Positions 24,265-27,728 of a stretch of DNA of 64,000 nt are shown piece after piece (position 1 is the stretch's first letter; the number at the start of each line of letters is the position of its first letter). The position numbers and the translations under genes are program-made. The stretch comes from Pseudomonadota bacterium (GTDB lineage Bacteria > Pseudomonadota > Gammaproteobacteria > Burkholderiales > UBA9220). The notes beneath the pieces were generated by a model that saw only the letters and a list, made by a program, of their open reading frames with translations, made no database searches and was not told where the DNA came from. The stretch is from assembly GCA_021845865.1 (NCBI GenBank), contig JAJZVC010000007.1, positions 18,256-82,255 on the forward strand. Reading direction: 5' to 3'.

Positions 24265-25221
24265 ATGCTGAGTTTCCTCAAATCCGACAAGAAACCGTCC
24301 GACGCCCCTTCCGGCGGCTGGATCGCCCGCCTCAAGCAGGGGCTCTCCCGCACCCGGGAGCAGCTCAACCGGCCGGTGTCCGACCTGTTCCGCAGCCACG
24401 CCAAGATCGACGAGGAGCTGTACGAGGAGCTGGAAACCATTCTCCTCACCTCCGACGTGGGGGTGGAGGCCACCCAGTTCCTCCTCGACGACCTGCGTCG
24501 CAGGGTCAAGAAGGAGCGCCTGGAAGACGCCGGCCAGCTCAAGGCCACCCTGCGCCAGTCCCTGGTGGACCTGCTGGAGCCCCTGGCGAAGCCCCTCGAC
24601 ATTTCCACCCACAAACCCTACGTCATCATGCTGGCCGGGGTGAACGGCGCGGGCAAGACCACCACCATCGGCAAGCTGGCGCGCCGTTTCCAGGATGAGG
24701 GCAAGTCCGTGCTGCTGGCCGCCGGCGACACCTTCCGCGCCGCCGCCCGGGAACAACTCGCCGCCTGGGGGGAACGCAACAACGTGCCGGTGATCATGCA
24801 GGAGGGCAACGACGCCGCCGCGGTGATCTTCGACGCCATCCACTCCGCCCGCGCCAAGGGCATCGACGTGGTCCTGGCGGACACCGCCGGCCGCCTGCCG
24901 ACCCAGCTCCACCTGATGGAAGAGCTGAAGAAGATCAAGCGCGTGATCGCCAAGGCCGATCCCAGCGGCCCCCACGAAGTGCTGCTAGTGCTGGATTCCA
25001 ACACCGGCCAGAACGGCCTCGCCCAAGTGAAGGCCTTCGACGACGCCCTGGGGGTCACCGGGCTGGTGCTGACCAAGCTGGACGGCACCGCCAAGGGCGG
25101 CATGATCGCCGCCATCGCCAAGACCCGGCCGGTGCCGGTGCGCTTCATCGGCGTCGGCGAACAGCAGGAAGATCTTCACCCCTTCGCCGCCGACGAATTC
25201 GTCGACGCCCTGTTCGAATGA
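24265..25221 (+). CDS. ftsY: Signal recognition particle receptor FtsY
   Basis: MLAGVNGAGKTTTIGKLARRF; VLADTAGRLPTQLHLMEELKKIKRV; VLTKLDGTAKGG. Confidence 0.98.
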   Translation: MLSFLKSDKKPSDAPSGGWIARLKQGLSRTREQLNRPVSDLFRSHAKIDEELYEELETILLTSDVGVEATQFLLDDLRRRVKKERLEDAGQLKATLRQSLVDLLEPLAKPLDISTHKPYVIMLAGVNGAGKTTTIGKLARRFQDEGKSVLLAAGDTFRAAAREQLAAWGERNNVPVIMQEGNDAAAVIFDAIHSARAKGIDVVLADTAGRLPTQLHLMEELKKIKRVIAKADPSGPHEVLLVLDSNTGQNGLAQVKAFDDALGVTGLVLTKLDGTAKGGMIAAIAKTRPVPVRFIGVGEQQEDLHPFAADEFVDALFE

Positions 25222-25871
25222 TCAGCTTCGACCAGGTCAGCAAGAGCTACCGCGGCGGCCACGAGGCCCTGCGCAACCTCAGCTTCGAAATCGGCGACGG
25301 GGAACTGGTCGTCGTCACCGGCCACACCGGCGCCGGCAAGACCACCCTCCTCAACCTCATCGCCGCCATCGAGCGCCCCACCAGCGGCAGCGTGGTGGTG
25401 AACGGGCAGAATGTCGGCAAAATGCGCCGCTCCGCCATTCCCTACCTGCGGCGCAACCTGGGGCTGATTTTCCAGGATCACAAGCTGCTCTTCGACCGCA
25501 CGGTGTTCGAGAACGTGCTGCTCCCCTTGCAGATCAGCGGCTTCCCCCATGCCGAGGCGGCCAAGCGGGTCCGCGCCGCCCTCGACAAGGTGGGCCTGCT
25601 GGACCGGGAAAAAGCCCATCCCGTCACCCTTTCCGGCGGCGAGCAGCAACGGGTGTGCATCGCCCGCGCCATCGTCAACCGGCCCAGCATCCTCCTGGCC
25701 GACGAACCCACCGGCAACCTGGACCCGGACTACGCCCACGGCATCATCGAGATGTTCCGCTCCTTCCACCAGGTGGGGGTCACCATCCTCATCGCCACCC
25801 ACGACGAGCACCTCATCGCCAGCCTGCCCGCCCGGGTGCTGACCCTGCAGCACGGAGCCCTGCGCCCATGA
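25218..25871 (+). CDS. ftsE: Cell-division ATP-binding protein FtsE
   Basis: [48 protein letters not shown]; follows ftsY. Confidence 0.97.
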
Positions 25872-26770
25872 TTTCCGTTCACTGGCACACCCTGCTCCTG
25901 GCGCTGAAGCGCTTCCTGCGCGCCCCCCTGTCCAATCTCCTGACGGTTTTGGTGATCGGCGTGGCCCTGAGCCTCCCCGCGGGACTCTACGCGGTGATCG
26001 ACAACCTGAACCGCCTTGCCGACGGCACGACGGGAGAACCCCAAATCACCCTTTTCCTCCAGACCAGCGCCAGCAAAGGCGATATCGGCGACTTGGCCGA
26101 CCGCCTGCGGAAATTGCCCGGCGTGGGACAGACGGATTTCGTCGGCAAGGACAGCGCCCTCAAGGAACTGGTCAAGAACGCCGGGATCGAGGACCTGGCC
26201 GCCACCCTGGACCACAACCCCCTGCCCGACGCCTTCATCGTCCGCCCCCGCAGCGACAATCCGGTCGAACTGGAGGCCCTGCGCAGTGAACTGGAAAAGC
26301 TGCCCAAGGTGGACAGCGCCCAACTGGATTCCGCCTGGGCCAAGCGCTTTTACGCCCTGCTGCAGGTGGGGCGGCAGGGCGTGACGGTACTGGCCATCCT
26401 GCTGGCCCTGGCCCTGACGGCCATCATCGGCAACACCATCCGCCTGCAAATCCTCACCCTGCGCGATGAAATCGAGGTCAGCACCCTCATCGGCGCCACC
26501 GACGCCTTCATCCGCCGCCCCTTCCTCTATTTCGGCGCGCTCCAGGGCCTGCTGGGAGGCATGGTCGCCTGGCTGGTGGTCGCCGCCAGCCTGTTGCTTC
26601 TCAACTCCGCCGTCGCCGACTTGGCCCAGCAATACGGCACGGCCTTCCGCCTCCAGGTGCCTGGCCCGGGAGGGAGTCTCGGCCTCCTCGGCGGCGCGGC
26701 GCTTCTCGGCTGGCTCGGCGCTTACGTCGCCGTCGGCCGCCATCTGAAGCACCCTGGCCGTCACGGATAG
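25868..26770 (+). CDS. ftsX: Cell-division permease FtsX
   Basis: [47 protein letters not shown]; 4-bp overlap with ftsE. Confidence 0.96.
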   Translation: MISVHWHTLLLALKRFLRAPLSNLLTVLVIGVALSLPAGLYAVIDNLNRLADGTTGEPQITLFLQTSASKGDIGDLADRLRKLPGVGQTDFVGKDSALKELVKNAGIEDLAATLDHNPLPDAFIVRPRSDNPVELEALRSELEKLPKVDSAQLDSAWAKRFYALLQVGRQGVTVLAILLALALTAIIGNTIRLQILTLRDEIEVSTLIGATDAFIRRPFLYFGALQGLLGGMVAWLVVAASLLLLNSAVADLAQQYGTAFRLQVPGPGGSLGLLGGAALLGWLGAYVAVGRHLKHPGRHG

Positions 26771-26810
26771 CCTGGTCATTGCTGGCGAATTATTGAACTT
26801 ACATGCCGAC

Positions 26811-26837
26811 TTGGCACTCTCACCCCGCGAGTGCTAA
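26811..26837 (+). promoter_or_regulatory. CIRCE-like element (HrcA operator) overlapping the putative rpoH promoter
   Basis: TTGGCACTC-tcaccccgc-GAGTGCTAA: one mismatch to TTAGCACTC-N9-GAGTGCTAA; contains -35 TTGGCA and abuts -10 TAAAAT (18-bp spacer). Confidence 0.85.
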
Positions 26838-26864
26838 AATTTTCCCCAAGGAGGTTTGCATACG

Positions 26865-27728
26865 ATGACGACTACCGCTTTGGCCATTCCCACCCCGGCG
26901 TCGGCTTCCAGCCTGGAAAGCTATATCCATGCTGTGCAAAGTTTCCCCATGCTCTCCGTCGAGGAAGAGCGGGATCTGGCAACCCGCTTCCACCAGCGGG
27001 ACGACGTGGAAGCCGCCCGCATGCTGGTGCTTTCCCACTTGCGGCTGGTGGTGAACATTGCCCGGGGCTATCTAGGCTATGGCCTGCCCCATGCCGACCT
27101 GATCCAGGAAGGCAACATCGGCCTGATGAAGGCCGTTCGGCGCTTCGACCCCGAGCGGGGCGTTCGCCTGGTGTCCTTTGCGGTTCACTGGATTCGCGCC
27201 GAGATTCACGACTTCATCCTGCGCAACTGGCGCATGGTCAAGGTGGCCACCACCAAGGCCCAGCGTAAGCTGTTTTTCAACCTGCGCAGCCTGAAGCCGG
27301 GTTCCGACACCTTGAGCCCGAGCGAAGTGGCGTCGATCGCGCAGCAGTTGAACGTCAAGGAAGCCGATGTGGTGGAAATGGAAATGCGCCTCGGTGGACA
27401 GGACATTGCCCTGGAGGGCCATTCCGATAGCGACGAAGACAGCTTCGGCCCCATTGATTACCTGGCCGACCCCCACGATGAACCCTCGGTTGTGCTCGAA
27501 TCCAGCGAAAGCGGCATGCTGCGCGAGCGCGGCCTCGAAAAGGCGTTGCATAAGCTCGACCCCCGCAGCCGCCGCATTGTCGAGGCCCGCTGGCTAACCG
27601 AGGACGCCGGGGCGACCCTGCACGACTTGGCCGCGGAATTCGGCGTTTCCGCGGAACGCATCCGCCAGATCGAACAGAAAGCCTTGCAGCAGATGAAGTC
27701 CGTCATCCGTGAAGAGATCGGGGACTGA
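26865..27728 (+). CDS. rpoH: RNA polymerase sigma-32 factor
   Basis: LSVEEERDLATRFHQRDDVEAARMLVLSHLRLVVNIARGYLGYGLPHADLIQEGNIGLMKAVRRFDPERGVRLVSFAVHWIRAEIHDFILRNWRMVKVATTKAQRKLFFNLR; start set at the ATG after aaggagg. Confidence 0.97.
   Translation: MTTTALAIPTPASASSLESYIHAVQSFPMLSVEEERDLATRFHQRDDVEAARMLVLSHLRLVVNIARGYLGYGLPHADLIQEGNIGLMKAVRRFDPERGVRLVSFAVHWIRAEIHDFILRNWRMVKVATTKAQRKLFFNLRSLKPGSDTLSPSEVASIAQQLNVKEADVVEMEMRLGGQDIALEGHSDSDEDSFGPIDYLADPHDEPSVVLESSESGMLRERGLEKALHKLDPRSRRIVEARWLTEDAGATLHDLAAEFGVSAERIRQIEQKALQQMKSVIREEIGD

Follow-up and report, generated by a model that had tools for sequence, protein, structure and literature searches.

In E. coli, control of sigma-32 is largely post-transcriptional, and the gene for this sigma factor, rpoH, is preceded by a sigma-E promoter, P3, with a TGAACTT-type -35. 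The textbook model of sigma-32 from this organism contains no HrcA layer because E. coli has no hrcA, an absence that was reproduced when E. coli was used as a control in our HrcA search. The locus described here also has a sigma-E-type promoter with a TGAACTT-type -35, but it differs from E. coli in that its genome encodes HrcA and its rpoH carries a CIRCE element, which the sampled rpoH loci of related, hrcA-less enterics lack. A 2003 study by Permina and Gelfand (reference 45 in PMC545781) reportedly dealt with the HrcA/CIRCE and sigma-32 regulons in the beta, gamma and epsilon groups of proteobacteria, the same regulators and groups as considered here, and it may well list betaproteobacterial rpoH sites already.

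The closest described system is that of Geobacter sulfurreducens, for which work published in 2004 predicted a CIRCE ahead of rpoH (PMC545781, Table 8), on the basis of profiles that came from a 2003 analysis covering beta-, gamma- and epsilon-proteobacteria. As in our locus, the element immediately precedes rpoH in a genome with hrcA; in Geobacter it is placed 51 nt from the start codon, and groESL has a CIRCE as well (PMC545781). Geobacter sulfurreducens differs in being deltaproteobacterial, in having perfect TTAGCACTC arms and in carrying a further CIRCE at hrcA-grpE-dnaK-dnaJ; the relevant passages of that account do not discuss an overlap between CIRCE and the promoter (PMC545781). Owing to this precedent, a wiring of rpoH to HrcA is not new in kind, and the original prediction that HrcA controls rpoH in our genome, while consistent with the in silico checks below (hrcA present, site conserved, site absent without hrcA), is less novel than it implied. 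A search of the open literature found neither a betaproteobacterial rpoH CIRCE nor a CIRCE/sigma-E overlap beyond PMC545781. The merging of CIRCE with a sigma-E promoter appears to be previously undescribed; judged by the open literature, what is added to the Geobacter precedent is the fusion with the -10 at rpoH and a sigma-E promoter in register with the operator.

The rpoH locus and its CIRCE element

The window, i.e. the whole stretch of 64,000 nucleotides that was analysed, contains the gene order ftsY-ftsE-ftsX-rpoH, with a gap of 94 bp between ftsX and rpoH. The features are as follows.

24265-25221: ftsY, upstream of ftsE
25218-25871: ftsE, between ftsY and ftsX
25868-26770, plus strand: ftsX, upstream neighbour of rpoH
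26794-26800, plus strand: sigma-E-type -35 TGAACTT, in a register kept 16-17 nt before CIRCE
26811-26837, plus strand: predicted HrcA site, CIRCE operator TTGGCACTC-TCACCCCGC-GAGTGCTAA, one mismatch, kept in relatives
26811-26816, plus strand: sigma-70 -35 TTGGCA, made by the CIRCE left arm
26818-26822, plus strand: sigma-E-type -10 TCTCA after a 17-nt spacer, shared between the CIRCE left arm (TC) and the loop (TCA)
26835-26840, plus strand: sigma-70 -10 TAAAAT, opening with the last three bases of the CIRCE right arm
26848-26854, plus strand: Shine-Dalgarno AAGGAGG, before the rpoH ATG at 26865
26865-27728, plus strand: rpoH (sigma-32), 287 aa, NCBIfam TIGR02392
27747-27784, plus strand: intrinsic-terminator-like hairpin, 3' of rpoH

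The rpoH reading frame scored 401.5 bits against TIGR02392 (cut-off 323.1), which identifies the product as RpoH. Compared to the CIRCE consensus, a 9-N9-9 inverted repeat with arms TTAGCACTC and GAGTGCTAA, the element in the ftsX-rpoH gap agrees at 17 of 18 arm positions and lies 54 nt from the rpoH ATG, at the promoter of this heat-shock gene. Dinucleotide shuffling of the window, repeated 100 times, gave no match with three or fewer mismatches, and in the 2.69 Mb assembly the element was the sole such match, while a reversed control pattern gave 0. The shuffles, the genome-wide controls and the conservation across loci (see below) together led us to reject a chance palindrome. The original prediction had thus placed the CIRCE element and its single deviating base correctly; the ribosome-binding site and start codon that it named are both there, its sigma-70 promoter (TTGGCA, 18 bp, TAAAAT) coincides with CIRCE as described, and every point of the observation holds. 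Its suggestion to look for further CIRCE elements in the genome left the rpoH site on its own.

Counted from the predicted sigma-70 start, the leader would be only about 18 nt long. Folding of the first 238 nt was no better than in shuffles (z -0.97), with no exceptional stability around the translation start, and the leader matched no Rfam family. An RNA thermometer of the E. coli rpoH type therefore found no support, as a short, unstructured leader argues against it.

HrcA, groESL and conservation of the element

A full-length HrcA is encoded in the genome (338 aa; 329.7 bits against TIGR00331, cut-off 197.2), its gene adjoining a ferrochelatase-like (hemH) gene and lying opposite an NAD-kinase-like gene, both neighbours being named from their translations only. 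The gene on which the original prediction hinged is therefore present and intact. By contrast, groES and groEL were not found in this 91%-complete assembly, which is probably an assembly gap, since a 99%-complete genome of the same genus has groESL. The regulon was therefore read from relatives: the same-genus genome has two CIRCE sites in all, at groES-groEL and at rpoH, and a genome of the same family likewise carries the pair at rpoH and groESL.

Conservation, proposed earlier as a check, was assessed in the 300 bp upstream of 82 rpoH loci chosen without regard to CIRCE, allowing up to three mismatches. The element was found in 57 of the 82, including almost all sampled Betaproteobacteria; several Gammaproteobacteria also carry it at rpoH (e.g. 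Methylocaldum, Dyella, Halothiobacillus and Pseudoalteromonas luteoviolacea). In a profile of 67 CIRCE loci, the arm columns were mostly invariant or nearly so, unlike the loop and the flanks. Among 49 genomes searched for HrcA, CIRCE was present at rpoH in 26 of 29 hrcA-positive and 0 of 20 hrcA-negative genomes (Fisher p value 6e-11, inflated because shared ancestry is ignored). Among the hrcA-negative genomes there is no exception: rpoH is kept and CIRCE is absent. All three exceptions have hrcA, and two of them (L040 and L054) bear an altered palindrome at the same place.

Two predicted promoters overlapping the operator

The sigma-70 promoter has an 18-bp spacer, a TGC ahead of the -10 (a TG extended -10) and 10/12 matches, and promoter-like sites in the region numbered 2 compared to 0.3 expected. 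The trinucleotide NAT, which turns the end of the right arm into the extended -10 TGCTAANAT, directly follows that arm at 60/67 rpoH sites but at only 4/23 groES sites. Although the betaproteobacterial groESL CIRCE is the same operator for the same regulator, it is thus mostly unfused to a -10. Deviations at arm position 3 were equally one-sided at rpoH (18 in the left arm, none in the right), where a change from A to G improves the -35, while the few at groES were all in the right arm (3, none in the left). The -10 fusion and the left-only deviations, both unlike groES, indicate that the rpoH operator has also been selected as a promoter. The outer bases of both CIRCE arms are shared with the -35 and -10 hexamers; the inner arm bases fall within the promoter spacer, yet they are near-invariant, which a promoter alone does not explain because spacers are not conserved in promoters.

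The original prediction did not include the sigma-E-type promoter that is interleaved with the operator. Relative to the sigma-E pattern (GGAACTT, about 16 nt, TCNNA), the match in the window has 6/7 bases of the -35 and a spacer of 17, one longer than the commonest. In the profile of 67 CIRCE loci, a second conserved block precedes the operator by 8-16 nt and corresponds to a GGAACTT-type sigma-E -35; in 34 of these loci a GGAACTT-like word stood at offset -16 or -17, compared to a background of about 0.34 loci per offset. An A in the loop completes TCNNA, in which TC is contributed by the last two bases of the CIRCE left arm, in 31 of the 34 loci in register versus 4 of the 33 others (p value 2e-11, Fisher's test ignoring shared ancestry). 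Overall, a sigma-E-type promoter occurred within 300 bp upstream of 68/92 rpoH loci, compared to 7.75 in dinucleotide shuffles, and in 21/25 rpoH loci without CIRCE, while it was found in 0/23 regions of that length upstream of groES. The genes for RpoE (332 bits) and RseA are side by side in the genome. However, the pattern was not enriched genome-wide (24 sites versus 48 for the reversed control), although such enrichment is a supporting rather than a strictly defining trait of a sigma-E promoter, and the stretch immediately before rpoE of this genome, used as an internal control, had no match. The sigma-E claim is for these reasons a comparative one.

Regulatory interpretation and variant loci

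From the sequence comparisons, the element at 26811-26837 is probably a functional HrcA operator within a compound rpoH promoter. HrcA binding, repression, feedback through GroEL and use of both starts are parts of the best explanation that we infer. HrcA activity depends on GroEL, so unfolded protein would lift repression. At normal temperature, free GroEL would keep HrcA active, and HrcA on CIRCE would block RNA polymerase at the sigma-70 promoter. Bound HrcA would cover the sigma-70 -35 and -10 as well as the sigma-E -10, and since the latter is carried by the CIRCE left arm, the sigma-E promoter would be blocked too. When GroEL is occupied by unfolded protein, HrcA would become inactive and rpoH and groESL would be released together; under envelope stress, sigma-E activity would contribute further rpoH transcription. 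There is a more far-reaching reading, to which we give somewhat below even chances, in which one HrcA operator gates overlapping housekeeping and sigma-E promoters of rpoH, so that the cytoplasmic folding state, acting through GroEL-HrcA, vetoes the envelope-stress input to sigma-32; this layout would be ancestral in Beta- and many Gammaproteobacteria, with enterics and their relatives keeping the sigma-E promoter alone after loss of hrcA. If true, a GroEL-HrcA sensor controls the master heat-shock sigma factor in most Betaproteobacteria, and cytoplasmic and envelope stress are integrated by one operator.

An alternative explanation is that HrcA represses the sigma-70 promoter alone, either because the sigma-E-like motif is unused here or because sigma-E transcription escapes HrcA. 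The missing genome-wide enrichment and the lack of a match before rpoE speak for it, as does the fact that about half of the CIRCE loci have no sigma-E -35 at -16/-17; we nevertheless consider it unlikely given the sharp register peak with TCNNA completed in nearly all loci in register, the retention of the sigma-E promoter at most CIRCE-less rpoH loci and the presence of RpoE and RseA. It is more doubtful still that the element is bound but minor, with proteolysis and translation chiefly setting the level of sigma-32, as they do in E. coli. While the largely post-transcriptional control known from that species would fit, the operator is deeply conserved and strictly linked to hrcA, and the short leader, with its unremarkable folding and no Rfam match, offers little to such control. 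That the inverted repeat is simply a promoter resembling CIRCE by chance is highly improbable: the coincidence of the outer arm bases with the two hexamers would be expected in this case, but neither the near-invariance of the inner bases within the spacer nor the absence of the site from hrcA-less genomes that retain rpoH would be.

Several loci depart from the layout in the window, in which one operator is predicted to gate both promoters. In some Burkholderiales (L021, L030, L034, L035), the sigma-E-type promoter starts 32-34 nt downstream of the CIRCE start and does not overlap the left arm. At L053, from a gammaproteobacterial genome (G031) whose hrcA is normal, the left half of the rpoH CIRCE has been lost, while a sigma-E-type promoter is retained. 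Paired arm changes, GCAGTC-N9-GACTGC, were seen upstream of rpoH in L040, L042 (imperfect) and L079, and a change of the GCAGTC type in one arm only in L007 and L077; the carriers of the variant are Xanthomonadales and some others, and its sequence suggests a shifted HrcA specificity. Pseudoalteromonas luteoviolacea (L049) has a perfect CIRCE at rpoH as the sole CIRCE-like site (up to one mismatch) in 6.1 Mb, together with a divergent HrcA-like protein (314 aa, 46.6 bits; L129:508-1452, minus strand) that is possibly an HrcA dedicated to rpoH.
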